From Podochytrium sp. JEL0797 (lineage: Eukaryota; Chytridiomycota; Chytridiomycetes; Chytridiales; Chytriomycetaceae): a stretch of 64,000 nucleotides of DNA. The DNA lies in contig JADGJG010000002.1 of assembly GCA_027596195.1 (NCBI GenBank), positions 90,327-154,326 on the forward strand. The letters run 5' to 3'. Under the pieces are notes generated by a model. That model had not been told where the DNA came from, did not search any database, and worked only from the letters and a program-made list of their open reading frames with translations. Position numbers and translations under genes: made by a program. Shown here piece after piece: positions 37,788 through 57,353 of this stretch (its first letter is position 1; each line of letters begins with the position of its first letter).

Positions 37788-38879
37788 ATGGAAGTCGTCG
37801 CGACCCAAACCCCCCAGGGCAGCATCTCTTCTACTCTTTACCTGTCTTCTACCTACCTCCTGTCAGTTCCTCGCGGATACAATTCTGCTACTGTCGGATT
37901 CGCAGATGCGGGGGGTGCCCTGTGCTCTGCAACGGCTTTGAATCCATCTGCGTCCTCCACTTGCCCTCCATCTATGGGATCCGGCAAATGCGCGACTTTC
38001 AGCTGCCAAAGTATCAGCACTCCCAGTATCACTGGATTGTATGTCGTGCAGGCCACGTTCTCGTTCTGCCCGATTTCTGTGCCTTGCAAGTTCTTGGACG
38101 TCGCATCATCTCAACCCATCTTGTTCTCGGCAGCCAATATCACTACCGCACAGATTCATTCTACATCACTTGCATCAATCACATCTGCAACAACGTTCTC
38201 TCCAATCGCGCCCAGCGCGGTCGCCGCATTGCCCCCTTCACAAGCTTCAGTGTCGCCTCTCGCCTCAACAAATCAACAGGCGGCGGCGGCCGCAGCTTCA
38301 GCTGCAGCATCTTCACAGTTGACTACCGCAGAGTCGTCTAGTTCGGGGCCATCACTCCTCGTTATTGCTGTGCCAATCGCAATCATTGCTGGACTCTTTG
38401 CCGTCATCGCAGCTGTTGTGAACTACGCCAACAAGAAGAATGGAAAGATTGACGCTTCGACCGAATGGTATACGATGAAAAGGCCTTCTCATCAGGTGCC
38501 GGATGTCGACGTGTCTCATACCTTGTCCCACATTATTTCAAAACCAACGAGTAGCAGTCAGCGCCCTATCTCAACAGCATTGCTTAAATCAAGCACCAGG
38601 ACAATAGCTGATGATTCGAGGTTACTCGACGTGATCCTGGAAGAGCCCGAGACGAATTTGCCAGTCCAACTGTTCACGCATCTTGCCCCAGTTAACGCTG
38701 CTCCCAATCACAGTTCTCATGAAGGAGTATTCAAAGTTCCATCAATTCCAGAGATGGGGATATATGGATTTCAAGCGAACGCTCATCAAGATGCTGTGCC
38801 GACAGCATATCCTGGATACTACGACCAGTGGGGGAATTATCACTTTTATCAGCAAAATTACTCACAGGACTTGGTTTGA
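37788..38879 (+). CDS. Array gene 1: single-pass surface protein, YPGYYD-tail type
   Basis: One exon, 363 aa. N-terminal domain of about 110 residues: STLYLSSTYLLSVP, LCSA, STCPP, then KCATFSC (the family C-x4-C) and FSFCP...PC. An Ala/Ser/Thr stalk with NIT glycosylation site leads to one span (about 195-220, SLLVIAVPIAIIAGLFAVIA) followed by NKKNGK, which predicts N-out, C-in. The tail ends with AYPGYYDQWGNYHFY. No signal peptide. An upstream GTG frame is open, but the ATG at 37788 aligns with sister genes. First and intronless member of the array. Function unknown; adhesin or receptor is an inference. Confidence 0.8.
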   Translation: MEVVATQTPQGSISSTLYLSSTYLLSVPRGYNSATVGFADAGGALCSATALNPSASSTCPPSMGSGKCATFSCQSISTPSITGLYVVQATFSFCPISVPCKFLDVASSQPILFSAANITTAQIHSTSLASITSATTFSPIAPSAVAALPPSQASVSPLASTNQQAAAAAASAAASSQLTTAESSSSGPSLLVIAVPIAIIAGLFAVIAAVVNYANKKNGKIDASTEWYTMKRPSHQVPDVDVSHTLSHIISKPTSSSQRPISTALLKSSTRTIADDSRLLDVILEEPETNLPVQLFTHLAPVNAAPNHSSHEGVFKVPSIPEMGIYGFQANAHQDAVPTAYPGYYDQWGNYHFYQQNYSQDLV

Positions 38880-39204
38880 GCTCAATAATGTGCGGGGTTT
38901 CATCGGGGATCGGATATTTCATTCGAGGGCGGGGAGAACCCAATTTGGCGATAATTTTCACTTTTACTCGTTCAACGTAGAAATACACATTTCCGTTTCT
39001 TTCTTAATTTCTAGCATAGAAGGATGAAGTGCAGTCTTGGGAATTATTAATAATATTGCGCCCAAGGAGGGTCGGTCTCAAATTCATTCATAAATAATTT
39101 TGCAATGCATTTCCCTCGTGATTAAATTCATGGATGAACGGCCCGTAATATTCTTCATACATGTTCAATATCGCATTTTTTCATGGAATAGAAAAGATCC
39201 CAGA
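38880..39204. other. Intergenic region between array genes 1 and 2
   Basis: 325 bp with no recognisable ectodomain remnant, although array gene 2 lacks this domain. I looked for the CPAGM/C-x4-C pattern in all three plus frames and saw none. Confidence 0.4.
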
Positions 39205-39901
39205 ATGCCTCTCCCACACATCGCAGTTGCGACGACGACCACATCACTCCACGGTACAACCGAGCCAACTGCTACGCCAACCATCACTGCGTTCGCGAAA
39301 GGAGTCAATGACAACTCTAACTTGGGCCCATTCACACCTCCCATGTCGCCAACGAATGATTTGGCGAGTGGCACAGACGCCAGCGCCAGCTCCGCAATGA
39401 TCGGCGCTCTGGTGGGCGTAATCGTACTTACGTTGATTGTATTTGCGGTTTGCTTTTGGTACAAGCGAAACCAGCGACTCAAACGCAAAAATAATGGCCA
39501 AATGCTCACTTGGGTTCAACCGGTCGGACCGAATGGAGCGAGCCAGCCACAAATGGCTACTGCTGGACAGAACCGCATTGTCGAGGCACAGAAGAATATT
39601 CCCGTGGATCCAAAAGTGCAGCAAGCTGCCTATCGTAAGTTCTACGTGCTTTTATCATTTCTGGCTTTCTGTAACTGTTTAAATAGTGGCCAAATACGGG
39701 AGAACGGATGATTTGCATGCGTACCGTAAGTGTATTTGGGAAAAATATTGGACTTGGGATGGCTGACGATGGCTCAATTTTGCAGGAGCTCGACACGATC
39801 GCAAGGGAAAGGGCCCTTCCACTGCCACAGTTCATCCCACAATGCTGCAGCAATTCCCTGGTTATTATGATGCGAATGGAGGCTACCATTTTTACAAGTG
39901 A
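39205..39901 (+). CDS. Array gene 2: truncated member, stalk-span-tail only
   Basis: Three exons: 39205-39634, 39687-39725, 39786-39901 (194 aa). It begins directly with a Thr-rich stalk (MPLPHIAVATTTTSLHG). A span (about 70-92, MIGALVGVIVLTLIVFAVCF) and KRNQRLKRK follow. The tail ends FPGYYDANGGYHFYK. The cysteine domain of the other members is missing. Either it has been lost or an upstream exon remains undetected. The aromatic tail ties it firmly to the family. Confidence 0.75.
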
Positions 39902-40112
39902 AGAGGGGGTGGGAGAGAAAGGGGGGAAGCGGCTGCTGGTTTAGCTGATTGTTTTTTATGTTTTGCATTTCCATCTGCGTTTGTGTCATCCAACAATTGC
40001 TTTCCTTAATCTTTTTTTGATACCATCCCATGGGGGTGGAGATGGCACGTGCTCCAACCCAATCAAATTTTTTTTGATCCGAAACCTCGGTTGAAGCCGC
40101 ACAACAGCAGCC

Positions 40113-41211
40113 ATGTCCAGCAACGCTTTCTCTGGGCTATTCATCGCTCAACTGTCGCCCTCAACGGTGCAGTACACGGTCATCATCGACTCTAGCGCAG
40201 TGACTTCCCTCAATACGGCGAGGGCCGCATTCACTTCCGGCAATGCTGCCATTTGTGCAGACCAGGGCACAATGGTAACCCGCCTGTCGCTGTCTTGTCA
40301 AGGCCGCAATACTATGAGCTGCCTGTCGCTTCAGTGCGTTGGCGGGTTGCCGGTGAACCCGCAGGCTGTGAGTGCCACTGTCTCAGTGGGCAGCCAGACG
40401 TGGAGCCTCTCGGGTTCTTTGTTGGGTGAGTGGAATACTTTGATTGCAGGGTATGCGCAAACTAATATCAGTTTCGTGCACAGCACCGACAACGAGCGCT
40501 GTAGCAACCTCCACTGCCAGAACATCAACCAAAACATCCTCCACAACCAGCGTGGCACCTTCAACCTCTGCTGCTGCTACTTCCTTTGCCACATCGAGCT
40601 CCGCTGAAATCACTTCGACAGCAACCCCCTCTCCCACCCCAACAGCTGCCGCTTCTAACTCCGGAGGAGGCAATTCAAACAACAACGCCATCATTATCGG
40701 CGCCAGCGCGGGAGGCGGGGCCCTGATTCTCCTCGGAATCATCGCCTATTTCTTGATTCAACGCAACAACCGCCACAAACGCAGGGAGAATTCCCAACAC
40801 GCTCCCTGGAACCAGCCCACGACTCCACCTGTAGTGCCAGTCAAGAACGCTGCTTTTAACGCAGCCCCACCGACGAGTTTGGAGTTGCTGCAGCAAACCC
40901 CTACTCAATCGCGTTTCGAATCTGGGAATACGTCGTCAGTGGTTGGGTACTCTCAGTATGCGCCAGCGGATGTTAACGGGCAACCAGTTTACGTCCAGCA
41001 ATACGCTCCCTCTGGCATCAACATTCAGCCAATGTACGCGCCGCAGCAATATGCTGCTCCTGTTGATCCACCGGTTGGATACTCGCCGCAAGCCGCTTAT
41101 GATACAAATTACGCCGCACCCGCGGCCGGGCAGCAATACCCAGGGTATTATGATCAACAGGGGAACTATCACTTTTACACTGCGGAACAGCTTCAACAGC
41201 AGTATCGGTGA
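40113..41211 (+). CDS. Array gene 3: divergent ectodomain, YPGYYD-tail type
   Basis: Two exons: 40113-40425 and 40484-41211 (346 aa). The intron has an ACTAAT branch site and CACAG acceptor; the nearer TTGCAG acceptor would break the frame. The ectodomain keeps ICADQG, SLSCQG and the C-x4-C (SCLSLQC) but lacks the final [FV]CP...C pair. Thr/Ser-rich stalk, Gly/Asn linker, span (about 190-213), RNNRHKRR, a PxxPxK element (TPPVVPVKN), a Tyr/Gln/Pro-rich tail and the end QQYPGYYDQQGNYHFY. No signal peptide. Confidence 0.78.
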
Positions 41212-41424
41212 AAATTTTGCTTGCCAGAAGTTGGGACTTGTAGATGTGGGGTTGTTTCGCACGCGTGTTGGTTTCCGCCCCTCGAGTTTAGATTAAAATC
41301 ATGATATTGTGTAGAAGAATAAAATGAAATGAATGGAAGTGTAGTATTTTTTCGACCGCGGGGGTTGACAGGTTCCCATCCCGCGGCTGGGCAGCACCTG
41401 TCAAAAAAAAAGCTCCGAATCCAC

Positions 41425-42276
41425 ATGTCATTCTTGACAGGCACCCAACTGACAGATGGCACAATGTCCTGCACTCTCTACATATCCGAGGCGTACCTGA
41501 CTCTCCTTCCAAACACGTCGACAACCCTTCGCGCGTCGTTTGACTTTTCGCTCGGTCACGTCTGTTCCATCGAGGCCCCCCTGTCCACTCCCGTATTGCC
41601 TTGTCCCGCAGCTTTTACATCTGCAGCTTCCGAACTCTGTGTGCAGTATTCATGCAATAGCTCAGGTCAACCTGTTATTCTGCAAAGCAACACGTACGCT
41701 CTCGCAGCCCTTTTTTCAATGTGCCCCATCAATGACACGGTTGGAACATGCGGGTACCATTCGGAAGCTCAAGCACTCGTGATTCTTCAACCTGCAGACA
41801 CACAAACACGTAGTACGTTCAGTAGCGGCACGGTCGCACCACTCGAGAGTCAGAGTGAGTCGCTCGGACAGCCACTTTCTTCGGACCATGCATTTCCCAG
41901 TTCTCCCACAGCTTCTACTCCTGATTTCATTTCTGAGTCTGGCTCTCCAGCCACGGGAGCTTTGCCGAGCTTGACGGCGACAGCCGTGCAAACGCGTTCT
42001 TCTACTTCAACAAGCCGCAGTCTTTCAACCACACTATCCCTCCCCACTGGTGATTTTGCTTCCAGTGACACTTCTTCCGCATCCAAAATTTCCAAAGGTG
42101 GAATCGCCGCTCTGGTCGTATTTTTTGCCGCGATCGTGGTCTCAATCGCGGTCGCCGCTCTGGTGTTGTTGGACAGACGACGCAAACAGAGACACCGGGA
42201 CACAATGAATCGCATCTCAGCAATGATTTTGTCGCCCAATGTTGGCGAAATGATGTCCGACAGGGAATCGACATGA
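41425..42276 (+). CDS. Array gene 4: surface protein with short basic tail
   Basis: One exon, 283 aa. Ectodomain: CTLYISEAYLTLLP, VCSIE, LPCPAAF, LCVQYSC, FSMCP...GTC, so all six family cysteines are kept. A 100-residue Ser/Thr stalk and a span (about 230-252, GGIAALVVFFAAIVVSIAVA) follow. The tail of only about 30 residues (DRRRKQRHRD...) lacks both the aromatic and the PxxP elements. The frame opens at an ATG 96 bases upstream, but MSFLTGTQ aligns with the other starts. Confidence 0.75.
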   Translation: MSFLTGTQLTDGTMSCTLYISEAYLTLLPNTSTTLRASFDFSLGHVCSIEAPLSTPVLPCPAAFTSAASELCVQYSCNSSGQPVILQSNTYALAALFSMCPINDTVGTCGYHSEAQALVILQPADTQTRSTFSSGTVAPLESQSESLGQPLSSDHAFPSSPTASTPDFISESGSPATGALPSLTATAVQTRSSTSTSRSLSTTLSLPTGDFASSDTSSASKISKGGIAALVVFFAAIVVSIAVAALVLLDRRRKQRHRDTMNRISAMILSPNVGEMMSDREST

Positions 42277-42375
42277 CCCCATTCAGCCCCATTCTCTCAG
42301 TTTTATATTTCTCTCGTTCCTTCTTTCTTTTATTGTTTTCATCTTACAATATGTACACAAGACTCTAATTTATTG

Positions 42376-45300
42376 CTAATTTATCCGAATTCCAAACCGC
42401 AAAGCTGCAACAATCACCAAAAACGCTCTCCGCCACCGCCTCCTCGGCGCACCCTTCCATCCCAGCACCAGCTCCCCAGCATCCTCCGCACCAGAGCCAC
42501 CACCACCGCCACCGACCTGTTGAATTAGCAATCGCTGGGACGCAAGCAAATCCGCAATCCACAGTTCAAAGTAGCGTTTTTGGAAAATCAGGTCGCCTCT
42601 CCAAGCCGACAGCCGCACGTTCATTGATTTGAAGTAAAAAAGGGCGTCTTTGAGCTCGGCGATTCCTTGGTCGAGGTTCAGAAGCGTGTCTGGGTCGCAG
42701 ATTTCGCGTACGAGGTCCCAGAGGGACATTTCGAGGTACCGGACCTGCAAGCAAACAGTGTTTCAGAATCGCGCAAAGTAAAATCAAACTGCGAAAAAAG
42801 AACAGAGAAACAACAAACCTTTTCATCCTCCACTTCCTTCAACAAGCCAATTTCATCCTCCAACATTTGAACCCTCCCCTCCCTCTCCTCCAACACCGCA
42901 TCCTTCTCCCACTTTTGCCTCTCCAACGTATCCAACACATCCCCAAATACCTCATCCAAAACACCACCCCCACTCCCATTCAACTCCCTCCCAACCCGAA
43001 ACAAACTCGCCTCCAACCTCTCCACACAATCACACAACTCCCTCTCCCTCCCTTCCCACACCCTCCCTCTCCCCTCCCACTCTCTCACACACCGCGACAT
43101 CTCCTCCACCTCCCTCACGATCCCGACCTCGCGTCCTTCCGCCTCTCGCAACCGCTGCGCCGTCTGCGCCTCCACCTCCTTCACCCGCGCCAACAGTCGC
43201 GCGTGGTCGTCCGACATGCGGTGGTGTGTTTCGAGCTCGAGACGGAGAAGACTCAAGGTGTCTGCGTCACGTGCGGTTTGGTGCTGTGCGAGGTGGAGGC
43301 TACGGGTGAGTTGGTCAATGTGGGAGTGGAGTTGATGGATTTCTTGTTGGTGGTGGTGGCTTTGTTGATCGAGGAGGGGTTGGGGTGGGTATTGAGGGGA
43401 AAAGGCGGAGGAAGACAGGTTGGAGGAACGGCGGGAGAGGCGGCTCGTGGGTCGGAAGGTGGAAGGTGGGGTGTGTGGTCGTGGGTCCGAAGGGGAGGTG
43501 TTGGTGCGGTGGTTCGCGAGGTTGGATAAAGAGGATGCGGATTCGAGTTGGGTTTCGAGGTGTCTGCGTCGAAAGTTCGTTAGATTTCAATCGAAAACGA
43601 ACGAGAAATGGAGACTCTCAACTCCAGGCACTCGAGAATTGTCGCAAGTGAGACTGAGACGGGCCTTGTGTAACCGGGCCAGGAGTGTCGTTCCATGATT
43701 TGTGCAATCGGAGCTTCGAGCTGCCGAGCGCGATCCAATCCAGCCCGGATGGACGCGAAATAATCATCCCGTCGTGCAACCCCAACTCCTCCCAGCACCA
43801 TCATCGCTTCCGAATCCTCCGAAACGAGCATCCCCACGCATTCTTTCACAATCGACTCCAACATCCCAACCTCCCGCTCGTCCGCCAACCCCTTTTCCAC
43901 CGCCTGCGCGAGGCTCTGTTTCAACTCCTCCTGGTGCTCTTTCAGCTCCTTGATCACGTTCTCGAGATCCTGGACTTGCTCCTCCATGGCCTCGTTCACA
44001 TCCGAAAACTGGATACAGTCGTCCTGGAGTCCAACGACTTCGAGTTGGAGGGCCTCCACTTGTGCTTCCAGACGAGATTTGTCGATTGTAAGGGCGGATA
44101 GAGCGGCATTGTGATTGGCGTTGGAAGCGCTGTTGGCCAGGTAATGAACAGAGAGTAGTTGTTGCTGCAGCTCGAGCACCTTTGAATCCTTCTCCTCCAA
44201 CTGGGCCACACCCTCCAACTTGGACTTCTGCAACTCGGCCTGCAACGCCGCAAGTTCCACCTCGTGCCGTTTCGTTGTCGACTTCCATTTGGCGACAGCT
44301 TCGGCCACCAACTCAAGCAAGTTTCGAACGCCCTTCACATCTGCTGACCCCGAAAGATGCCCTTCGTCTCGCAACGTTTCCGCCAGCTGATTCGAAAATG
44401 TCTCAAACTGTTGGTCTCGAGTTTTGATGTCATCTGTCAAACGCGTCAACGAGGCTTGCATCCCGTCTCGCTCGTCAACCAGCCGCTTGTTGTTCCCTCG
44501 CTCCACGTCGAGCAAAGATTGCAGATTTGCGGCTTCTGAAGTGGAGTTGTCGCATGATCGCTCAAGTTGGGCCAGACGGTCTGTGAGCGTATCGTGCTGT
44601 TGTTGCAGTGATTTGAGAGAATCATCCTTTGCAGAATATAGCTGAAAGATCATGGAGTGCTCTTGCATCGATTTGTCCAAGGAAGCAGAGAGTTCGTCGA
44701 CTCGGAGTTGAAGGTGACTGTTTTGTGTACGCAGCTCGTCTCGATCGCCCACCGCTTTCGCAGCTTCGCGCAACGCCTCATTTTCGTAACTCAACGACAC
44801 CAGCTGAGCTTCGAGTGACCGAATGCTTGCGGACTGTTCGTCAATTCGGTCCTTGCATTCGATGAGATCCGATTCAGCGAGAACCTTGTCACTCACGGCC
44901 ATTGAAACGCTGTTTTCGAGCTCAAGAAGTCGAGTTTGGAGGGATTCAAGTTCCAGCTGCTGCTGTCGCGCGACGCGGCGGTCCGAGTCCGAATGCGGCG
45001 ACGAGTGCAATTTGAGGGAGGCAATCTTCTTCAACAGACGAGAGTTTTCGGATTGCAAAGATTCGAGCTTAGTCATGGCGTGAGAGAGGGACGTTTTGCA
45101 TGTGTCGAGGTCGGCAGAGATGCGAGCGTTTTCGGCGTTTGCGATTTCGACGATTTCCGTCATTTCGCGGGAGTAAGTTTGGGCGAGGAGGGTATCACTT
45201 GTTGCAGCTTCGAGTTGGGATTCGAGGGATTGGATTTGCGCTTGGACGTGGGAGACGGTGGTTGGGTCCGTGAGGCTGGATCGCCTGCTGGACGGGTTCG

Positions 45301-45980
45301 CGACGGACGCGTAAGAAGGAATGGTTTTGAATTTCTTTGAGTTCAATTCGGTCTCGAGTGAGAGAATGTGGGCGTCTCTGAGAGCGAGGTCTTCTTCGCT
45401 AAGAAAGGGATTAAAATAAATAAATAGAAAATAAATAAACTCACAGCAGAGCCACGCGCATTCTGTTCTCTTCGTACTCTGCAAAGTCCTTTTCCCACTG
45501 GGCGACTTCTTCGATGCGCCTTTCGTCGCGCTGTTCGATCTGCTCTGTTTTTGCCGCGAGACTTCGCTGCAGAGCCTCGACGGCATTCGCAAGTGTTTGC
45601 TTGTCGCGCCGCAGAAGAGCGACTTCGCTGTCGTCTAAGAAGGGCGCTGGCGGCGTGTCCTGGAATGCGTCAGCCCTTCCCTCGACTTTAAAGAAACAAC
45701 ACACCTCGTCCCTGGCCTCAGAAACACTGCCCAACTCTTCCACCACCGCGAATTCAGCGAATCCAACGCTACGATCCAAGCCCGTTTCTCGCTCGCCGTC
45801 AAGGTCCAGTTCATCAAGTGACCGCAACAAGTCAGATTGGCTCTCCGAGGTCCGGATTCGCTGCGGTGAGAGGGTGCTGCTTCGATCCGGTGATATGGGA
45901 AGGTCATCGTGTGTGGGTGATGTGTGGATCGACGACACGGCAACGCCGGCGGGGTCGACAGAGACCTCAAAGTCGCTCAT
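42376..45980 (-). CDS. Long coiled-coil centrosomal protein with C-terminal PACT-like domain
   Basis: Four exons: 45980-45445, 45398-43623, 43563-42819, 42744-42376 (1141 aa). An acidic/Ser-rich N-terminus (SPTHDDLPISPDRSS) is followed by about 800 residues of heptad coiled coil (ALRDAHILSLETELNSKK, ENSRLLKKIASLKL). After a Ser/Pro/Thr hinge, more coil leads to a C-terminal region with RGDLIFQKRYFELWI, a Gly-rich linker, and RRRWRRAFLVIVAALRFGIR. Those last two elements resemble the PACT motif that targets pericentrin, AKAP450 and Pcp1 to centrosomes. The second intron has a GTTGAG donor. It lies inside the surface-protein array on the opposite strand. Confidence 0.72.
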
Positions 45981-46158
45981 TTTTGGGGAATCAAGATTTC
46001 AAGAAGGGGGCCCTCCCCTTCCCCCGCCCCAATCGTCGTTCTTTTCCAGCTTGCTGTCTACTGAAAAGTAAAAGCCCAGTCTGTCTCTTTCTTACATCAT
46101 AAGACGGAAGAAAAGAGCGAAACAGAGTTTGAAATTATATTCGCAAGTATCCCCGAAA
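45981..46158. promoter_or_regulatory. Divergent upstream region of the PACT gene and array gene 5
   Basis: 178 bp between the two starts. Role inferred from position only. Confidence 0.4.
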
Positions 46159-47263
46159 ATGGGCCACACCCCCGTGGTCACAGCTGCCCAGAACGCCGAT
46201 GGATCCGTCACAGCAACTCTCTTTCTCAATAGCAGCTACTATGCCTCCATTGCAAGCTCATCTGGGGGTAGCGACATAATTACGGTCCAAATGTCGGGAG
46301 CAGTGAATGGCAATTTGTGTTCTGCCACCGAAGGAATTACAACATTCTCTGCTCGTTGCCCCGATGCAATGTCGAGTAGAAATCCATGTATCGCGATCTC
46401 ATGCCAGGCTCCTGCCTCAGCGATTGCAACCTCCGGCGCTGACCAGATCCAAGTAATGTCATTCTCGAAATTCGGAACTGTTTCTTTGAACCAAACGCTG
46501 ATGCAAACACTTTCAGGCCATATGGACCATTTGCCCAAGTCAGAGACCAAGCTGCAATTCAGGAGGCAGTTCTATTTCGAATCCTATTCAACTCGCGGCT
46601 CCTGCCGGGGCGCCAGTGCCAGTCGCGCCAGCGCCGATGGCACCGGTAGCAGCGCCAGTTGCGGCAACTCTGATTGCCCCAGCGGTAGTCGCGCCAGTTC
46701 CGACCATCATCGCTGATGTTGCTGCTCCTGACGTGCCTACTGCCGAAGTTGCCCCGCTACTCGCAGTTTTCACCACCGCGACAGTCCCGAATCCTCAAGC
46801 TCCAGATGCGACACAAATCATGTCCAGCCAAGCCATCAGCTCCAGCGTCGCTATTCAAGCATCCGTTGTCGAACCAGTGACGGCGTTCAACCCAGCTCAG
46901 CAAGATGTCTCCGTCCCAACTTCTGGGGCGGGAAACCACTCCCTCGGAGTGGGAGTTGGGATTACAGCTTTCATCATGATTCTCGTTGCCGCCTTGGCCT
47001 TTGTGTACATTTGTCGTCGACGCTCGAGCCTGAAAACCCCCCCAAGTGTGCCAGAGCACTACCAAAATCAACAACCAGCTGTTGTGGCCAAATCCGCGAA
47101 AGAACTGGATCCAGATAGTTATAGTCGACTGTTGTCTTTCTATTCCAGCGACACTCAGATTCCTGGAGGGGCTGAAAGGTTGGAAGTTGTGTCCAAGATT
47201 CTGCCTCCACTTCCCGTCGTTTCGCGCGTTGAACGATCGCAACGACGAGCCAACTTTACCTAA
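46159..47263 (+). CDS. Array gene 5: surface protein with SH3-ligand-like tail
   Basis: Two exons: 46159-46452 and 46517-47263 (346 aa). Ectodomain: VTATLFLNSSYYASI, LCSATEG, ARCPDAM, PCIAISCQAPAS, IWTICPSQRPSC. The phase-0 intron falls just before the AIWTICP block, as in array genes 6-10. A Pro/Val/Ala repeat stalk (APVPVAPAPMAPVAAPV), then a span (about 250-272, VGITAFIMILVAALAFVYI) and CRRRSSLK. The tail ends with SKILPPLPVVSR, a textbook [RK]xxPxxP SH3 class I ligand pattern. No aromatic YPGYY element, no signal peptide. Confidence 0.8.
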
Positions 47264-47358
47264 TTCTGTATAAACGAATTTTGAAATAAATTTAGAAATT
47301 GGTTTTTTTACTTCCCACGCGAAACGAGAAACTGAAATTGAAAAGCTCAAACAAACAT

Positions 47359-48501
47359 ATGGCCCACAGCTTGGTCACAGTTGCCCAAAACACGGACGGA
47401 TCCGTCTCAGCAACTCTCCATCTCGATGCTAACTACTATGCGTCGATCATGGCGACAGTGCTTACCGGCCAGAGCGCCTTCACGGTTCAAATGTCCGGTG
47501 CAAAAAATGGCAACTTGTGTTCTGCCTCTGGGCTGCAAGCTATTTCATCACTTTCTGCTTCGTGTCCAGTAGGTATGTCAGCTGGAAGCGTATGTGTGGA
47601 GATTTCATGCCTAGCTCCTGTCTCGGCAATTGTGACCTCCGGCTCTGATCGCATCACGGTGTGTGCTTTCCTACTCCCCTCTTGCCCCCTGTGACAAATC
47701 GTCTAAATGATTTTCCAGGCTGATTTGACTGTTTGTCCAAGTATGACACCAAGCTGCACCACTGGAGACAATCTGACGTCCGTTTCGAATTCTGTCGAAC
47801 TCGTGTCACGGGTGGCCGCCGCGTCATTAGTTGCACCGGCAATAATCGCGCCAGCACCGACAGGGATGGTCGCACCAGTGATAATAGCACCAGCACCGAC
47901 AGGGATAGTCGCACCAGCACCGACAGGGATAGCCGCACCAGTTCTGACCGCTAACGCCGTGTCCGACGTCGGTGGAGTGTCACCGCCTTCCGAAAATGTG
48001 AACGCGTCTGCTTCGCCTCCTCCCATCATTGCTACCACCACTGTCCCGCCAAATCAAGCTCAACCTTCAGAAACGACTCAAGCAACGTCCCACACTTCCA
48101 CAATGTCGACTCGAGCTCCAATACAACCAGTCAGCGCAACGAATCCAACACTCCAAAACTCCTCGACCACCCAAACGTCTGGAACAGCAAACAGCTCCAT
48201 CGGAGTGGAAGTGGGAGCTGCGATTTCCATCACAATTCTGGTTGTCGCTTTGACCTTCTTTTACATCCGTCGTCGACGCGCGGGTTTGAAGACCTACCCA
48301 AGTGTACCGATGCACTATATGAGCCAACACCCTTCTGCTGCACCGGTCATAAAAGAGGTGGAGACAGGCTGTTACAGTGGCGTGTTGGCGTTTTATTCGG
48401 ATGAAAAGGGGGGGTTAAAAGAAGATAACATTTTTAGGGGCACACCTTCCAGGCAGTTGCCCCCAGTTCCCGCGGCCGCGCGAGGCGGACGCAGACAATA
48501 A
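47359..48501 (+). CDS. Array gene 6: surface protein with SH3-ligand-like tail
   Basis: Two exons: 47359-47658 and 47719-48501 (360 aa). Closest to array gene 5, 95 bp upstream: VSATLHLDANYYASI, LCSASG, SCPVGM, VCVEISCLAPVS, TVCPSMTPSC. The stalk contains repeated APAPTGI/MVAPVII units, then a Thr/Ser/Pro stretch with NSST sites. Span about 275-297 (VGAAISITILVVALTFFYI), then RRRRAGLK. The C-terminus has SRQLPPVPAAARG, matching [RK]xxPxxP. No signal peptide. Confidence 0.8.
47842..47945 (+). repeat. Short tandem repeat coding for A-P-T-G-[IM]-V-A-P in the stalk of array gene 6
   Basis: Units of the form GCACCAGCACCGACAGGGAT followed by AGTCGCACCAGT-like sequence recur about four times with small changes, so stalk length could vary by slippage. 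Confidence 0.75.
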
Positions 48502-48601
48502 TAGAATTGGATAAAATGTATAAAATATTGATTAAATCTCAATTTTCCCCACGTGCAACACGCACGCGGAGATTTGAATTGAATTTTTTTTGATCTTCAA
48601 A

Positions 48602-50047
48602 ATGTCGAACACGAACCTCGTCGTCTTCCAAGGCCCCTCTGGCTCCATCACGTCCACGTTGTATCTCGATGCGGCTTTCTTCAGGCAGATTCCGTCCACT
48701 TCGAACTTGATCTCTGCCCAAGTCGTTGCTGGCGGAATCTCGTTGTGTTCGACAACCGCGACAGTGACTGCACCGTCAGTTGCTTGTCCTGCTGGAATGT
48801 CGGGAAGTCTTTGCATGGCGGTCTCCTGCCAAGCTCCTGCGTCGGCCATAAAGGAGACGATAACTGAACAAGTCGTGGTGAGTGTGTCTTTCGGGCTTGA
48901 GTCAATATTGATAAGGCAGATCACTAATCTGGTTTAAAAGGCGGTTTGGACCGTCTGTCCTACCAGTAGGCCATGTACTACCGCGTTTCAAGCAACCTCC
49001 CAGCCTGTTCGCTTGATCGCTGCGAGCAGTAACGGCGGATCTGGCGGAGCTGTCGTACCAAGCCTTCCCGCAGCCGCTGTCACCACCACCTCTGCTTCTG
49101 GTCCTATCGTAGCCCCTCCAGCGACATCAGCTGCAGCTGTTGAAGCTACCTCGGCTGCCCCTGATTCCGGAAACCCACCCACAACCGCGGCTGTCGACCC
49201 AGTCCCTTCCGTTGCCGGCAGCGCCGCACCCATCTCTACCACCACCTCCAACCCAGCAGGTCCCATCACCGCCTTCAAACCCCAACCTACCACGACGCAA
49301 TCCACGTCCACCACCACCATCACCACCGAAACCGCGTCGATCCCTCTCTCCACCATTCTCGCCGTCGCCTCAACCGTTGCCGTCCTCGCCTTCATTGCCA
49401 TCGCCGTATTCCTCGGGCGCAGAAAAAGGGCTCAATCGAAGCGCAACACTTTGCACCGCCTCTCCGAATTCCACAGCCAACAACAACCCCCTGTCCACTT
49501 CGAATCGAGAGACCCCGACGTGGCCATGTCCGACCTGGTCGCAAAACCATCACAAGAACCACAGCGGGAACGCCCTTTCCCTGTTCAAAGTACCGTGGTG
49601 GCCATGAACGCGAGTGTTGTCGTGCCACCTGCAGCAGCACGTTCAACTCCGGTTCCAACAACGGCACCAGCCTCCACTTCTCCCACTGCTGACACCCTCC
49701 CAGAGCAAGCAATCGTGATTCAACAGCAGCAAGTCATTGATCAACAGCAGATAAAAGCTCTCGAGGAACAACAACGCGTCGAGTTGATTCAAAAGGAGCA
49801 GGTCATGTATCAGCAGCATTTGGAGCAGATGCAGGCGCTGCAGACGCAGATTGAGCAGATTCAGCAACAGCAGCAGCAGGTTGCTGGGCGGGATCCGAAT
49901 CAGGTTTTGTATGAGCAGCAGTTGGTGCAGCAACAGCAGCAGATGGCGCAGCAGCAGCAACAGTATCCTGGTTATTATGATGAAGCTGGTCAGTATCACT
50001 TTTACGCTCAGCAGCCCCAGCAGTCCCAGCAGCCACCACAGCAGTGA
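48602..50047 (+). CDS. Array gene 7: surface protein with Q-rich coiled coil and YPGYYD tail
   Basis: Two exons: 48602-48877 and 48941-50047 (460 aa). Ectodomain: STLYLDAAFFRQIPSTSNLI, LCSTTATV, VACPAGMSG, LCMAVSCQAPASA, WTVCPTSRPC. A long Thr/Pro/Ala stalk, then a span (about 248-270, ILAVASTVAVLAFIAIAVFL) and GRRKRAQSKRN. The tail has FESRDPDVAMSDL, then a Gln-rich coil with QQRVELIQKEQVMYQQHLE, shared with array genes 8 and 9, and ends QQYPGYYDEAGQYHFY. The largest member; no signal peptide. Confidence 0.82.
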
Positions 50048-50487
50048 TGATTTCAAAATTTTGGCTGTTTCCAAGTCTATTTCTCGTTCGTTAAATAAGT
50101 AAAATAAAAAATATTTTTTGATTTTTTGTGGAAGCAAATGGTTGAAGAAATGGATAACAGCCAGGTTAGTTAAGTAAACCGCCGTTTTCAATCATTGTTG
50201 AGTAAAAAAGCTAAAAGCCGGAGGAATATGCGATCATTCCTCCACTAGAATTTTCGCTCTCAAAATGAGCGACACGAGCCGCGTTCTTCGTCCAAATTCC
50301 GTCTACACATGTCGAATTTTTTCGTTACTTTCCCCCATATTTTGAGTGTATAAAAACATGTCAAGGAGAATGTTAAAATGAAGGTCCGCAACCCCCTCCC
50401 CCCGGGAATATCTTAAATTTTCAATCCACCCAAACGAGATCTGAATCTCTCCGTCTCCTTTCAAAATCTCTAAATTTGATCGCAGAA
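50048..50487. other. Intergenic region between array genes 7 and 8
   Basis: 440 bp, the longest gap inside the right half of the array. A/T-rich, no supported ORF. The last bases before the next start read GATCGCAGAAATG, so a leader-intron acceptor next to the ATG is possible. Confidence 0.4.
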
Positions 50488-51706
50488 ATGAACTCGAATC
50501 TCGCCGTCTCCCAAGACTCCTCTGGTGTTGTTACGACAACCCTGTATCTCGATGCGGCATTCTTTGCGCAAATTCCAACCAGCTCAAACCTCATCTCCCT
50601 CCAAACGTCGCAAGCCACTGGAAACCCGTTGTGCTCAACAACTGCAACGGTCAGCACCCCCTCTGTTGCTTGTCCTGCTGGCATGTCGGGAAACCTCTGC
50701 ATGGCGGTCTCCTGCCAAGCCCCCGCGTCGGCCGTAGCTCGCGTAAGCGCCGCGACACAATTCGTGATGGTATGGTGATGGCACGATGCATTATTGTGTT
50801 ATGATTGCTGATGTGCCTCTCCTTTGCTTGCAGGCTTCTTGGACGGTTTGCCCGAGCACGAGCCCAAATTCAAACGCGTGCACCAGTCCATTTCAAGCCA
50901 TCTCTGCACCGATTGCATTGATCGCAGCTGCGCCAGCTATTGCCCCACCCACATCCGCAGTTATACTTGCCCCACCAATCGAGACATCTGGTGTTGCTAA
51001 AACCGATGATCAACGACTTGCCAGCACAAGCGCCTTGGCAGCTCCCATGACTTCGCCCCCAAGCACCGGAGTCACTTCTGAACCACCAAAAGACTCCAGC
51101 ACCGGCGGCTTCCCTCTTACCATTGGTCTCGCCATTGGTGCCGGCGTAGTTCTTTTGGCGCTCATCACTTTTGGCTGTGTTTTCGTCCGCAGAAAGTCCG
51201 CCAAAAACAACCGCGATATGCAACTCAAGGAATTCACCAACGCCCCGTCTTCATCCACGCACTCGTACTATTCCAGAGACTCACAAGTCGCCAGGTCCGA
51301 ATTCAGCTACACCAAATCGGATCATTTTTCTGCTCAAGGTGTCGTCACAACGCCTGCTCCATCTGCGGACATCAAACCTGCCCCCAAGACAAACGGCACC
51401 GCTCATCTCGAGATGACCACAACTCTGCCCCAGCACCCCAACCTCCAACAACAGCAAATGAGCGCTTTCGAAGCCCAACAACGCGTTGAGTTGATTCAGA
51501 AGGAGCAAGACATGTATCAGCAGCATTTGGAAGCGATGCAGGCCCTTCAGGCACAAATTGACAAGATTCAGCAGACGCAACAAGTGCGGCTTCCCCAGGC
51601 AGCAAACAAGCAGCTGTCGCAGCAACAGAAACAGACGGGGCAGGAGTACTCTGGATATTATGATAATGCGGGAGTGTATCATTATTATTTGCCTTCGGAT
51701 GAATGA
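50488..51706 (+). CDS. Array gene 8: surface protein with Q-rich coil and variant aromatic tail
   Basis: Two exons: 50488-50769 and 50834-51706 (384 aa). The ectodomain is nearly the same as array gene 7 (TTLYLDAAFFAQIP, LCSTTATV, VACPAGMSG, LCMAVSCQAPASA, WTVCPSTSPN). Span about 200-222 (FPLTIGLAIGAGVVLLALI), then VRRKSAKNNRD. The tail carries SRDSQVARSEFSY, QQRVELIQKEQDMYQQHLE and ends YSGYYDNAGVYHYY, a variant of the aromatic element. The TTG frame upstream is ignored in favour of the ATG. No signal peptide. Confidence 0.82.
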
Positions 51707-51983
51707 AGAGTTCCGAGCGCGTATTGTACATGAGAAATAGAAAAAGTAGGATCCAAAGAATAGGGGTGTTTCGTTGGAATTGGTTTTTCTTATTCGCCAC
51801 GGACTTGCGCGCAAGTGACGCGCGTGTGCTTTCCCCCCTGGGTACGTCAACCAATCCCGGTGGCCACATCTCCTCCACTTTCCTTCCTCACGTGATCATC
51901 TAAATTGAAAAATTTGCGACAGACTTGCGAACATCGCGCCTCCCGGCAGCCAATTTCTTCATCTCTCACGGAATCGAAGAAAA

Positions 51984-53378
51984 ATGAGTGATACCTCAGT
52001 CTCCGTCTCCCAAGATGGCTCTGGCACAATCAAGGCGACGTTGACCATCAACGCGGGATTCTGGAGCAATATCCCGTCAACGTCGAACTTTCTCCAAGTT
52101 AAATTCACGGGCAATGGCGTCGAACTGTGTTCGACAGCCGGCTCTGTTACCACTCCATCGATGAGCATTTCGTGTCAAACCGATGCCTCTGTGATCACCG
52201 GGACTGTCACTGAATCCATCACGGTGAGAGTCCGAGCGATCAGCGAATTGAACTCGCGTGAATCAATCAACTGATTCCTCATTTGTCACCCCCTTCAGGC
52301 CAGCTGGACAGTATGTCCCAGATCCAACCCGTTTTCCAACAACTGCGCGCAGCCGTATTCCGCAACCTCGCAGGCAGTTCAGCTGGTTGGAACCGGTGGA
52401 TCCGGAAGTGGCGGAGGCAGCCCCCCACCTCCACCACCTCCTCCTCCTCCCGCTCCTCCAGCCGCTACCACTGCAGCTGCGGCAGATGCCGGACCACCCG
52501 CGGCGGCCGATGGCGGAGCAGGAGCTGCCACGACGGCCGCAGGCCCCTCAAACGGCAACAACGCGAACCCAATCACGTCCTCAGGTGGAACCGCGGCCGT
52601 CACCGGTGGCTCGAATAATTCAGGATCTAAATCCCCATCCACCACCGGCGCCTCTCCCCAAGTTCCAGGCTCCCCTTCTCAACCCAACTCTGGCTCCGCC
52701 ACTCCAAACAGCGACAGCACCAGCGGGAGTAGTGGTGGCTTCCCTCTCACGATCGGCCTTGCTGTCGGCGTGAGTGCCTTCCTCTTGGCTCTCTTCGCGT
52801 TCGGATGCATCTTCGTGCGTAGAAAAGCCGCTCAGGCCCAACGCAATGCACGATTCAAGGAATTCGATGCCGCAAACAACGCGGCGCCTCCCATCCGTTT
52901 CGATGAGTCCAGTGACCCCGAAGTTCCGATGTCCGAATTGAGCACTAAGGCGGCCACGGAATCTCGCGCTCGCCCGTTCCCTGTTCAAGCCAAGGCGGCT
53001 ACTCCGGTTATGGCATCGACTGCTGTCAGACCTGCTCCCAGGGCAGCTGCCACCAGGGAGCAAGAGGTTATGGCGAACCAGCAGCAACATCAGCTCCATC
53101 TACAGCAGCAGCAAATGGCTGCGCTCGAGGGCCAGCAACGCGTTGAACTGATTCAGAAGGAGCAAGCCATTTACCAACAGCACTTGGAGCAGATGCAGGT
53201 GCTTCAAGCGCAGATTGAGGAAATCCAGCAGAGGCAGAAGACGCAGAATCCCGCTCAAGCGCAGCAGCAGGCGGCATATGAGATGCAACTCCAAAAGCAA
53301 ATGATTCGCGAACAGCAGCAAATGCTGCAACAGCAGGAGTTGTTGCAGCAGCAGTACGCCGCAGGTTTCCAACAATAA
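51984..53378 (+). CDS. Array gene 9: surface protein that lost the CPAGM...C segment and the aromatic tail end
   Basis: Two exons: 51984-52223 and 52299-53378 (439 aa). The ectodomain keeps KATLTINAGFWSNIPSTSN, LCSTAGSV and SWTVCP...NNC, but where sisters have CPAGMSGNLCMAVSC it has only PSMSISC: about 11 residues and two cysteines are missing. The stalk starts with a 10-Pro run and is Gly/Ala/Asn-rich. Span as in gene 8 (FPLTIGLAVG...), then VRRKAAQAQRN. The tail has QQRVELIQKEQAIYQQHLE and a polyQ end (QQYAAGFQQ) without the YPGYY element. Confidence 0.8.
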
Positions 53379-53533
53379 TTCGGGTTTTGGGTTGGGGAGA
53401 CCGCTGTTTATTTGCTTTTATAATTCACTATGTAGAAAAGAGGAAGGAAGAAGAATAATAAAATCTATCGTGTTGAACATCGCACGTGCCCATTCCGTGC
53501 CCGGGAATCAAAAATTTAATCTCAAAAATTTCG

Positions 53534-54857
53534 ATGTCCCTCTGCTTGCTGGGCCCACAAGATGCCTCTGGCGATACCTCGGCCACGCTTTATGTCTCCA
53601 TCGCGTCGGCAAATGTGCCGAACGGATTTTTCGACGTGAGCTTCTCGTTCGCGGCCACCAATCAGTTCGTTTGCTCGACGCAAGGATCCCTTGCTGCCGC
53701 ATCAGTGCAAACAACATGCCCCATGGCAATGCCTGAATCAGCAGGACAGCCTTGCTACGCCTTTCAGTGCCAGATCCTTGGTGCGGCGATCATTCACACT
53801 TCGGCGTATCAAGTCACGGTGTGTGTATTTTTTCATGAAAGGGCCTGTCTGATCACTTTCAACGATAGGCGGCCTTCTCGCTCTGCCCTGCCAATTCGCC
53901 GCAATGCGGGGACAAGCAGTCCACAACGTCCTCGCCCGCCTCGCTGGTCGGAACCCAGGGCGGATCGCCTGGTGGATCGCAGCCAGTCGAACAGCCCGGG
54001 ACGGGTCCTGTTTCGGGCGTGGCACCGGGCAGCGCCGTTGTTCCCGGCAGCACAACAACCACGGGAGTATCCTCGGACTCAGCAAAAGGCGGTCTTTCTG
54101 GAGCCGTCGTCGGAGTGATCGTCGTGGGTGCGCTGTTGCTGTTGGGAGGCTTGGGTGCGTTTCTGATGCACAAGAGAGCTCAAAAGAGAAGAGCTGAAGC
54201 GACGGAGAGACTGCAGTACCATTTGGACCGGCATCCTCCGCAATCGCCGTTTTCGTTCGCGAGTGACCGCGCCGCTCCTCCTTCCCCTCCTCCAAAAGCG
54301 CAAGTTGAACGAGTTCCAGAGCAATCATCTCAACCGGCTGTTCCCAACAAGCGGGCAGCGGCGGCTCCGAAACCAGCAACCTTCCAATCTGCGGCCCCCT
54401 TCTCCTTGTCCGATTTGGAACAGCGCGCGCCTTCGAGTCAATCACAGCATGCGGCGAGAGGGGTTCCAGAGGGAACTTTGGTTGAACCGAGAGTGGGCGA
54501 AGTTTCGCACTTGGAGGAGTTGGAGACGGTGTTTGTTCCGCCACCGATCAACCCGGAACAATTTGGATTACCGCCTATCGCTCTACAAAATTACTCTCCA
54601 CAGTACGGGCAGCAGCCAATTCCGGCTGGATATTCTCATTACCCTCCTCCTGGTATGTTACTGATTGTTTTTGATGACTTGATTGCTGACGCGATTGAAC
54701 AGCGAGCCTCACCTCATACCCACCGGCTGCATATGGAGACATGCAACAACAGCAATACGCTCAGTATTACGCCGAGCAGCATCAGCAACAGCAATACGCG
54801 CAGTTTTACGCGATGCAACAATCTCAACAGCCACCCCAGCACTTCCAGCAACAATAA
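53534..54857 (+). CDS. Array gene 10: surface protein with PxxP and Tyr/Gln-rich tail
   Basis: Three exons: 53534-53818, 53869-54652, 54703-54857 (407 aa). Ectodomain: SATLYVSIASANVP, VCSTQG, TTCPMAM, PCYAFQC, FSLCPANSPQC. Gly/Ser/Pro stalk, span (about 183-206, VVGVIVVGALLLLGGLGAFL), HKRAQKRR. The tail has PPSPPPKAQ (PxxPxK), Pro/Tyr-rich sequence and ends in repeated QQYAQYYAEQ-like units, a degenerate relative of the aromatic element. An additional 50-bp intron lies within the tail. No signal peptide. Confidence 0.8.
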
Positions 54858-54988
54858 TTTCGTCACTGCCAAAGAAAACTTGAATAAACTGACAAGAAAC
54901 GGCAAAATCAATTTAATCACGATTGCACGTGCATGATCATGGGTGACAGAAAATTGCAATTTGGAGATCGCCCCAACATTCCACAGAA

Positions 54989-56134
54989 ATGAGCACTTTT
55001 GTGTCGGTGTCGCAGTTGCCCAGCGGTGCGGTTGCCGCCACTCTTTACCTCGACAGTCTCTACCTTCTTGGGATCCCTTCCAAAGCCAACACCATCAGCC
55101 TCGAATTCGATTATTCGGCAGGCGTCCTCTGCAAGACCACTCTTCCCGTGGGATCTCGTTCGTCCTGCCCCGCTGGAATGTTGTCAATCAGCTGTGTCTC
55201 TTTCTATTGCCAAGGCCCTGCTCCCAGCGTCAGTGTGAAGGACACGATCCAGGCCCAATTCTCGTTCTGCCCCGCAAACGACCCAACCTGCGGCATGAAC
55301 GCCGACTCCGCCACGTCGAATGAAGTCTCTTTAATTGCGGCTGGATCGAGCGGCAAACCTGGGTCGCCGGGAGTGGGGCCAGGCGGCGCTGTCGTTCCAA
55401 ATCTCCCAAGCGCCACCAAAGCCGTCCCGGCCGCAACCAGCGCCGCCGCTGCAGCTGCAGCTTCTGCTTTCGTGGCCCCAGTTCCGCCCATGGTCATCAC
55501 TTCCATGGACTCGTCGCCGAACCCTGCGTCCAATTCCAACACCGGCGCGTCGCCCGGTTCTTCCGGCGGCCCTTCGATGGCCGTCATTGGTGGCGGCGTC
55601 GCTGCTCTCTTGGCAGTCCTCGCAGTCGGCTTCTTTGTATACCGCCGCCACTCTTCTAAAGCCAAGCGTTTGGCGGCGCAGCAACGCCTCTCCACCGTGT
55701 TTGGAAACGGACCCGTCGCGTTTTCGTCTACAAAGGACACCCTGCCCGTCGTTCCCGTTCTTGCCGACCCCCAAGTGCTTTCTTCTCCAGCTGGTCTGAG
55801 AAATGGATCGCAATTGGCCTCTACCAATTCCGCGGCTTCCTATTCGACTGTCCCCGCTGAGCTCGGGGTTGCCAGCCTACAGCAGCAACAGTTTGAACAG
55901 CCACAGTATATTCAACCCCAACAATACATGGTTCCACCACCACAGCAGCAGTTTGTTCAGCAGCCCGTTGCTCAGTTTGCGCCGCCGCAGAATCACGTCT
56001 ATCCTCCGCAAAATCAGCAGCCAGTTGTTTATCCTGGATTTTACGACCAGCAGGGCAATTATCACTATTATTCGGCAGAACAACTGCTGCAACAGCAGCA
56101 GCAATTGCAGCTCCAGCAGGGTGCTGGACAATAA
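54989..56134 (+). CDS. Array gene 11: surface protein, YPGFYD-tail type
   Basis: One exon, 381 aa. Ectodomain: AATLYLDSLYLLGIPSKAN, LCKTTL, SSCPAGML, SCVSFYC, FSFCPANDPTC. Ala/Pro/Ser stalk, span (about 198-222, MAVIGGGVAALLAVLAVGFF), YRRHSSKAKR. The tail is Gln/Pro/Tyr-rich and ends VYPGFYDQQGNYHYY plus a Gln run. It is intronless, like array genes 1, 4 and 12. The start codon lies directly after CCACAGAA, so an unseen leader exon cannot be excluded. Confidence 0.82.
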   Translation: MSTFVSVSQLPSGAVAATLYLDSLYLLGIPSKANTISLEFDYSAGVLCKTTLPVGSRSSCPAGMLSISCVSFYCQGPAPSVSVKDTIQAQFSFCPANDPTCGMNADSATSNEVSLIAAGSSGKPGSPGVGPGGAVVPNLPSATKAVPAATSAAAAAAASAFVAPVPPMVITSMDSSPNPASNSNTGASPGSSGGPSMAVIGGGVAALLAVLAVGFFVYRRHSSKAKRLAAQQRLSTVFGNGPVAFSSTKDTLPVVPVLADPQVLSSPAGLRNGSQLASTNSAASYSTVPAELGVASLQQQQFEQPQYIQPQQYMVPPPQQQFVQQPVAQFAPPQNHVYPPQNQQPVVYPGFYDQQGNYHYYSAEQLLQQQQQLQLQQGAGQ

Positions 56135-56321
56135 TAAAAAAATTCCCTTTTCCCTCCATTGGTATAAATAAAATCAGATAGAGAGTTATTCTTGTGAAGA
56201 ACCCCTGAAGAACCCCCCCAGCCACCCCTATCTCCCAACTGTGCCTGACAGCTCACAAGCCCACGCGTGTCGCCCAAAAATTCGCCGACGTTTTCTTCCA
56301 AGGGATCCGCAGCCATCACTC

Positions 56322-57353
56322 ATGGCCGACTCTCTGACCACCATTGTCCAATCCGCCGATGGTAACGTCGTGGCTACTCTCTTTCTGAGTAGTCGGTATC
56401 TTGCCGGCATCGACCATGCTGACGACACGATCATCCTCGACTTCGACTCGAGCTTGGGCATCCTTTGCCAAATCACCACGGCTCTCGGATCTCCATCTAT
56501 GCCATGTCCTGCAACTATGTCTGGTGGAGAGTGTGTTGCCATCTCGTGTCTGGGCCCTGCACCACAGAGGGTGTTCACTGACGTTTTCCTCGCCCAGTTT
56601 TCAATCTGTCCTTCGAATGCAGTCACTTGCGGACTGAACTACCACACGATTTCGTCTGGCACAGTGTCTCTTAGTCCTGCCGGTCAAATTGCGCAAGTCC
56701 CACTGCCCAGTCCAATTCCCAACGATCGCGGACTTGGCAACGGAGTAGTCACAACGGCGAACGCGGTCGCGACGGCCATCACAATCATCGCACCAGGCGA
56801 CCAGAGTAGTACTGTGTTTGCTCCTGCCAAAACCATTTTGGTCACGAGTCCAGCCAATTCAACGGAGATCACGCCGTCTACCCAAGCATCACGCGGTCCC
56901 CCGATTGCTGCCATAGTCTGTACACTAGCTGCAGTACTGGTATTGCTCTGCATCGCCATATGCTTTGTGCTCCGTCGCAAAAGACAAAGAGCGAAAGCCA
57001 ACCGCCAAGCAGCTCGAGAATCTCTTTCGAGAGTGCACACAAGCGGCCCCTATTATTTCTCCTCCACGGCACCCGATACCCCCGTTCCACCTATCCCACC
57101 CTCGAAAGATTCTTCCTCGGCGGTGCTCAGAAGCATGGCTTCCTCCACTTCTTTGGATTCAATCAAGCGGTTCTATCTTGAACGCGCTCCTCGGCAACAG
57201 AAACAGGAACACGAGACGAAAGTGGAGATTCCGAATTTTGTCCCGCACCCGGATCAGTTGGCTGCAAGACCTTTTTCGGCGGGGAACGCGCAGCAACATG
57301 CTCGCACATATCCGCCTTCAGCTGGGGATGCACTTTTCTCAAGAGTTGAATAA
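56322..57353 (+). CDS. Array gene 12: surface protein with SH3-ligand-like tail
   Basis: One exon, 343 aa. Ectodomain: VATLFLSSRYLAGI, LCQITTA, MPCPATMSG, ECVAISCLGPAP, FSICPSNAVTC. Thr/Ala stalk with NST site, span (about 193-217, PIAAIVCTLAAVLVLLCIAI), then LRRKRQRAKANRQ. The tail has YYFSSTAPDTPVPPIPPSK (PxxPxK) and a basic middle, and no YPGYY end. The frame is open upstream to 56241, but MADSLTTIVQ aligns with sister starts. Last member of the array. Confidence 0.8.
   Translation: MADSLTTIVQSADGNVVATLFLSSRYLAGIDHADDTIILDFDSSLGILCQITTALGSPSMPCPATMSGGECVAISCLGPAPQRVFTDVFLAQFSICPSNAVTCGLNYHTISSGTVSLSPAGQIAQVPLPSPIPNDRGLGNGVVTTANAVATAITIIAPGDQSSTVFAPAKTILVTSPANSTEITPSTQASRGPPIAAIVCTLAAVLVLLCIAICFVLRRKRQRAKANRQAARESLSRVHTSGPYYFSSTAPDTPVPPIPPSKDSSSAVLRSMASSTSLDSIKRFYLERAPRQQKQEHETKVEIPNFVPHPDQLAARPFSAGNAQQHARTYPPSAGDALFSRVE

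Follow-up and report, generated by a model that had tools for sequence, protein, structure and literature searches.

Twelve neighboring genes of the chytrid Podochytrium sp. JEL0797 encode a little-known family of predicted cell-surface proteins

We analyzed a stretch of 64,000 nucleotides (hereafter the window) at the end of contig C112 (154326 bases; JADGJG010000002.1, positions 90,327 to 154,326) of the 24.4 Mb assembly of Podochytrium sp. JEL0797. Twelve neighboring plus-strand genes (G1 to G12, window positions 37788-57353) probably encode one little-known family of cell-surface proteins, and as a family the group is well supported by our sequence computations. Gene models rebuilt from the DNA revealed that all 12 are complete open reading frames built on one plan: an N-terminal head, a stalk of variable length rich in Ser, Thr, Pro and Ala, a single hydrophobic span (Kyte-Doolittle 19-mer score 2.25-3.18), a basic stretch (net charge of the 15 residues after the span, +1 to +8) and a C-terminal tail. 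The models agree on this point with the original prediction, made from the sequence without database searches, which had described 12 plus-strand genes of this architecture.

The head (107-130 residues) is present in 11 of the 12 members; G2 has approx. 63 residues before its span, with no cysteine among them. Different heads match each other, with E-values down to 1.4e-31 (G7 to G8, 68% identity). When the genome was queried with the heads of G11, G7, G1 and G5, 10 of the 11 array heads were recovered together with two copies on contig C53, and a weak match on contig C33 (E 0.147) was taken as chance. The head of G3 was recovered by none of these four queries; what places G3 in the family is only the alignment (21% identity to G1), the position of the gene within the array and its tail peptide. 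A tblastn search of the window with 13 heads gave, outside the gene bounds and among the best 15 of 56 rows, no match below E 0.66 except two that were G1 itself.

In the tree of the heads, groups were formed by G5 and G6 (94/92), by G7, G8 and G9 (80/88, drawn open) and by these five together (94/93), while G12 and its C53 copy (99/100) make up the only starred branch; at the deep forks the tree is open (6 of 10 inner branches). This grouping of array neighbors fits tandem duplication. On C53 (L001 7197-9552, L002 972-1174) the two copies are collinear with G11 and G12, and the stretch downstream of G12 (window 60695-60897) also has a partial match on C53 (82% over 203 bases), with the order kept, from which we read the pair as a segmental duplicate. 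The head of the G11-like copy on C53 is broken. Outside this genome the only relative found was P0002 of Rhizoclosmatium sp. JEL0117, which belongs to the same family of fungi as Podochytrium (Chytridiales, Chytriomycetaceae); P0002 shares its start, the six cysteines of the head, the stalk, the span and the tail peptide with the array members. We propose that the family is restricted to this lineage, although its absence elsewhere is not established by the word-based protein searches, which need shared 5-residue words (in one of them scoring was limited to the 8000 candidates with the most words in common).

Alignment of 12 heads (11 from the window and one from contig C53, approx. 120 residues) revealed six invariant residues (M1, a Q, a T, an A and two cysteines) along with four further cysteines that are nearly invariant. 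Of the elements with which the original prediction had characterized the heads (among them LCS, C-x4-C and [FV]CP...C), C-x4-C is kept, as had been stated, in every complete head but that of G9 (10 of 11). For the other two the wording was too narrow: [FV]CP...C should read [FVILM]CP...C, an element that G3 lacks in addition to G2, and some members have LCK, LCQ, VCS or ICA at the LCS position. Where cysteines have been lost, the losses are paired, 2 and 3 jointly in G9 and 5 and 6 jointly in G3, so that four of the six conserved cysteines are found in each of these heads. In the simplest reading of these losses, disulfides would link cysteines 2-3, 5-6 and 1-4, which in turn would place the head in an oxidizing, extracytosolic environment. 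The heads are poor in aromatics (0-2 Trp and 1-5 Tyr per 107-130 residues, 13 heads). They are also very poor in charge (K+R+D+E 2.4-9.2%, 13 heads), which may perhaps ease translocation.

Searches of Pfam, NCBIfam (five proteins) and PDB sequences gave no match at cut-off over the head; the full-length Pfam scan covered 10 of the 12 array proteins (all but G2 and G8), and the head scan 12 heads. The matches under cut-off lay mostly over the span, the strongest being GPS-CTERM (E 1.4e-5, 25.2 bits against a cut-off of 28), and TM_ErbB1 (E 5.8e-4, 20 bits against 27.1) was also found there, both in P0002. The Pfam scans of array proteins, heads and P0002 revealed no sequence match to an immunoglobulin (Ig) or fn3 family, and there was no match at gathering score to the 4227 families of Rfam. 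DUF7908 was rejected as a candidate: it matched the head of G3 alone (E 0.015, 16 bits against a cut-off of 27), and a genome search with it found nothing. Among the titles and abstract openings listed by literature searches on chytrid surface families, none describes the array family, nor is it mentioned in the available part of PMC12115818. The earlier view of an unfamiliar family of single-pass proteins in tandem, which share a head, carry a stalk rich in Ser, Thr, Pro and Ala and continue beyond a basic stop into a tail, is upheld.

Structure prediction, which had been suggested as a check alongside a Foldseek search, gave a consistent picture for the two heads modeled with AlphaFold, those of G11 (predicted local distance difference test, pLDDT, 90.5; predicted template modeling score, pTM, 0.83) and G1 (pLDDT 90.3, pTM 0.82); these are different targets built on the same 19 aligned rows. 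Both models are all-beta sandwiches of approx. seven or more strands in the same order. Among the closest structural neighbors of either model are GH2 enzymes, the erythropoietin receptor and several transglutaminases (Z up to 8.2 and 7.9), whose matched stretches we take to be Ig/fibronectin-III (FnIII)-like domains, and the top Foldseek match is a porphyran-binding module (E 3.1e-3, TM 0.46). No one specific family was prominent in the structural comparison, and the structures of Wsc1 and Flo11 were not among the best 50 matches listed in each comparison, where they may stand further down. The assignment of the head as a predicted Ig/FnIII-like beta-sandwich is well supported by these models.

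As judged by hydropathy, without a trained predictor, none of the 12 array members has a signal peptide: their N-terminal 19-mer hydropathy does not exceed 1.39, compared with 2.25-3.18 for the spans. An open reading frame of the window with an evident hydrophobic start, used as a control, scored 2.13; P0002 scored 0.85, and the C53 copy of G12 scored 1.65, below the control. In all 14 proteins K and R account for 1.1-3.0% of the residues before the span versus 4.9-22.9% after it, the residues flanking the span have a charge of 0 to -2 N-terminally and of +1 to +8 C-terminally, and 13 of the 14 tails are cysteine-free. The lack of a cleavable signal peptide ahead of a positive-inside span, taken together with the paired loss of cysteines, makes a type III topology (N-out, C-in, uncleaved) likely. 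According to the part of PMC13220792 available to us, human N-out signal anchors have a positive-inside and mildly negative-outside bias; they are typically tied to the endoplasmic reticulum membrane protein complex (EMC), and those with short flanks (<50 aa) to Oxa1-type insertases. Under a type III model the head and stalk to be exported comprise 172-264 residues; judged against the latter pattern, N-terminus-first export of this length would be unusual, and this weighs against the topology that we favor.

At or near the end of the tail, the peptide G[YF]YDxxGxYH[FY]Y is found in G1, G2, G3, G7, G8, G11 and P0002 (7 of the 14 proteins, two genera), and a similar peptide is present in the broken G11-like copy on C53. 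A query of the genome with the G3 tail end returned six places including itself, every one belonging to the array family, and missed G8. Matches to the SH3-ligand consensus occur in G2, G3, G5, G6, G10, G12 and the C53 copy of G12; 12 were observed in the 14 tails against 3.3 expected from shuffled tails, with only G5, G6 and G10 exceeding their own shuffles at P<0.05 and the paralogs not being independent. Upstream of the array, the minus strand encodes an SH3-domain protein (34351-35640; PF00018, E 3.7e-9), which contains cysteine in its N-terminal part and, as judged by eye, one likely span. That it might be a partner of the tails carrying SH3-ligand motifs is speculation.

The ratio of nonsynonymous to synonymous differences (pN/pS) was determined in seven pairs, which overlap in members (G1, G5-G9, G11, G12 and the C53 copy of G12). 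Heads gave values of 0.28-0.65, stalks 0.64-0.81, and span and tail taken together 0.43-0.71; only the ranking of these values was used, since several pairs approach saturation at synonymous sites. The value of the head was below that of its own stalk in all seven pairs; relative to span plus tail it was lower in four, equal in one and higher in two. The heads (39-68% identical in the six within-array pairs compared) are more constrained than the stalks, and the tails are approximately as constrained as the heads. This speaks against an arms-race diversification of heads, and the suggestion that the array represents a diversified set of adhesins or receptors, if diversifying heads are meant, could not be sustained.

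Of the named surface proteins with which the family was compared, Wsc1 has a signal peptide, Flo11 has a Ser/Thr-rich stalk, and Fus1 lacks a cleaved signal peptide and carries an SH3 domain. The array members differ from Wsc1 in the absence of a signal peptide and in the predicted fold of the head, which is PAN/Apple in Wsc; they share the type of stalk with Flo11 but have a span and tail in place of its glycosylphosphatidylinositol (GPI) anchor. Unlike Fus1, they have SH3-ligand consensus matches and a folded head, and no SH3 domain was matched by Pfam in the 10 full array proteins or in P0002. The likeness to Mid2 lies in the Ser/Thr-rich stalk and span, and the headless G2 would be its closest counterpart. 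PF01822 (WSC) was unmatched in the full proteins scanned (10 of 12; G2 and G8 not scanned whole), in 12 heads and on contig C112; PF04478 (Mid2) reached at best E 0.081, in G3 (13.1 bits against a cut-off of 23.2; same 10 of 12 proteins); and PF10182 (Flo11) was unmatched in the Pfam scans of array proteins, heads and P0002, while the Trp and Tyr counts of the heads speak against surface bands rich in these residues. As far as the accessible parts of the sources go, Wsc1-3 consist of a small Cys-rich extracellular head, a glycosylated Ser/Thr-rich region, a span and a cytosolic tail (PMC9024836, PMC6685044), an anatomy that the array members resemble (Ser/Thr-rich stalk, one span, tail), with six head cysteines instead of the eight conserved in Wsc1 (PMC9024836). 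With the same reservation, Flo11 displays an FnIII-like head at the cell surface, with sixteen surface aromatics in Flo11A against the few Trp and Tyr of the array heads (PMC7156268), and Fus1 is single-pass, O-glycosylated and located in the plasma membrane (PMC3718343), as the array proteins would be. By its sequence, the array family is built like a sensor or adhesin of the head-stalk type and falls outside the WSC, Mid2 and Flo11 families. Elsewhere in the same genome there are WSC-domain matches, 64 over cut-off among 68 rows and none of them on contig C112; they lie on contigs C87, C811, C874, C493, C548, C790, C35 and others, several close together on some, and the frames of the nine inspected resemble internal exons.

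We give about an even chance to the interpretation that the array encodes lineage-restricted plasma-membrane sensors of contact or of the cell wall, Wsc-like but built on an Ig-like head. In the mechanism that we infer, the head, a disulfide-bonded Ig/FnIII-like sandwich, would be exported without a signal peptide, the one span would serve as reverse signal anchor, and the stalk, probably O-mannosylated, would extend it in or through the wall. On touching a wall polymer, the substrate or another cell, the proteins would cluster, and the signal would be relayed by the tails, in one class (often Q-rich) via the G[YF]YDxxGxYH[FY]Y end and in another via SH3-ligand motifs; tandem duplication would have kept head and tail constrained, with the stalk changing most. 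To put sensing before adhesion is a matter of judgment. In the main rival interpretation, which we consider possible but less probable, the proteins are adhesins, whose heads bind the substrate or other cells (homotypically or in a lectin-like manner) and whose tails only anchor or sort. An FnIII-like head is reported to serve adhesion in yeast Flo11 (title of Kraushaar 2015, cited in PMC7156268), and the variable stalks rich in Ser, Thr, Pro and Ala as well as the porphyran-binding module at the top of the Foldseek matches are in keeping with such a role. It is harder to reconcile with the constraint on span and tail (pN/pS 0.43-0.71) and with a C-terminal peptide common to two genera, which suggest a cytosolic function, with the scarcity of Trp and Tyr in the heads, so different from what the accessible account of Flo11A describes, or with a span and tail where a GPI anchor might be expected.

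A repertoire for allorecognition or immune evasion, with heads diversified by selection, would account for a tandem array with divergent heads and variable stalks and tails; the pN/pS of the heads (0.28-0.65), which evolve more slowly than the stalks in every pair, renders it improbable. Two further alternatives concern topology. The signal peptides of ordinary type I proteins might lie in upstream exons that we failed to recognize, as 21-153 nt of open frame precede the ATG and the gene models come from DNA alone; we doubt this strongly, given that the distance from the start to the first conserved strand is approximately equal in the 11 heads and in P0002, which was annotated separately, and that five spacers measure only 95-187 nt. 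The most improbable arrangement is the reverse one, with a cytosolic N-terminal domain and a lumenal or extracellular tail: it is compatible with the hydropathy of the N-termini but conflicts with the positive charge after the span in 14 of 14 proteins, with the N-terminal disulfides suggested by the paired cysteine loss and with the lack of cysteine in 13 of the 14 tails.

The features of the individual genes are listed in Table 1. The proposed tandem array spanning 37788-57353 holds as regards its 12 plus-strand genes, but it is not continuous, being broken between G4 and G5 by a minus-strand gene (approx. 42376-45980). The gene coordinates give intergenic spacers of 95-440 nt in 10 of 11 cases, the exception being the 3882 nt before G5. 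All intron-bearing array genes have GT-AG introns in our models: G5-G10 have in common a phase-0 intron directly before the A-x-[WFL]-[ST]-[VIL]-CP segment (G10 has an additional second one), those of G2 and G3 are placed elsewhere, and G1, G4, G11 and G12 are intronless.

Table 1. Genes of the array, in window coordinates
Gene	Position	Strand	Exons	Protein (aa)	Features
G1	37788..38879	+	single	363	head, stalk, span, tail; GYYDQWGNYHFY near tail end; head model pLDDT 90.3
G2	39205..39901	+	39205-39634, 39687-39725, 39786-39901	194	headless; tail motif GYYDANGGYHFY
G3	40113..41211	+	40113-40425, 40484-41211	346	most divergent head, without cysteines 5 and 6; tail motif GYYDQQGNYHFY
G4	41425..42276	+	single	283	very short tail, 34 aa
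G5	46159..47263	+	46159-46452, 46517-47263	346	tail with two class I SH3-ligand consensus matches
G6	47359..48501	+	47359-47658, 47719-48501	360	tail with two class I SH3-ligand consensus matches
G7	48602..50047	+	48602-48877, 48941-50047	460	Q-rich tail, motif GYYDEAGQYHFY
G8	50488..51706	+	50488-50769, 50834-51706	384	tail motif GYYDNAGVYHYY
G9	51984..53378	+	51984-52223, 52299-53378	439	head without cysteines 2 and 3; Q-rich tail without motif
G10	53534..54857	+	53534-53818, 53869-54652, 54703-54857	407	Y/Q-rich tail end without motif; four SH3-ligand consensus matches
G11	54989..56134	+	single	381	head 47% identical to Rhizoclosmatium P0002; tail motif GFYDQQGNYHYY; head model pLDDT 90.5
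G12	56322..57353	+	single	343	tail PVPPIPPSK (class II SH3-ligand consensus), shared with its copy on contig C53

Three public gene models were recovered from the array, and all of them disagree with the paralog pattern. P0001, a model of G11 (the protein record matching G11 is HDU98_004286), lacks 19 residues including three of the six cysteines; P0003 (G10) begins only partway through the head; and in P0004 the end of G2 is joined to G3, whose head is 20 residues short. We read these differences as prediction errors. Automatic gene models can break such genes, and may in this way have kept the array family without a domain model and out of the domain databases.

The minus-strand gene within the array contains long frames that by eye are coiled-coil-like, including one of 670 aa (43580-45592) for which there was no Pfam match at E 0.01. 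Elsewhere the window encodes an animal-type heme peroxidase (759-2381; PF03098, E 4.2e-54) whose N-terminal region includes a hydrophobic segment resembling a span, and an F-box protein with leucine-rich repeats (15598-16518).

The lack of a signal peptide, the paired cysteine loss, the tail peptide, the SH3-ligand motifs, the C53 cluster and the Ig/FnIII-like fold are additions to the original prediction. In a bolder and tentative extension of the sensor interpretation, the family would represent chytrid-specific Ig-like receptors whose disulfide-bonded head and stalk (172-264 residues) are exported N-terminus first without a signal peptide, and which sense contact by means of a common head coupled to different classes of tail, an independent fungal counterpart of animal Ig-domain receptor clusters. 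To our knowledge, little is known of the receptors by which chytrid zoospores and rhizoids recognize walls, substrates and each other. The array family provides concrete receptor candidates, with a predicted Ig-like head, tail peptides that recur among members and what would be an unusual mode of export, and it poses a question of topology that is directly testable.

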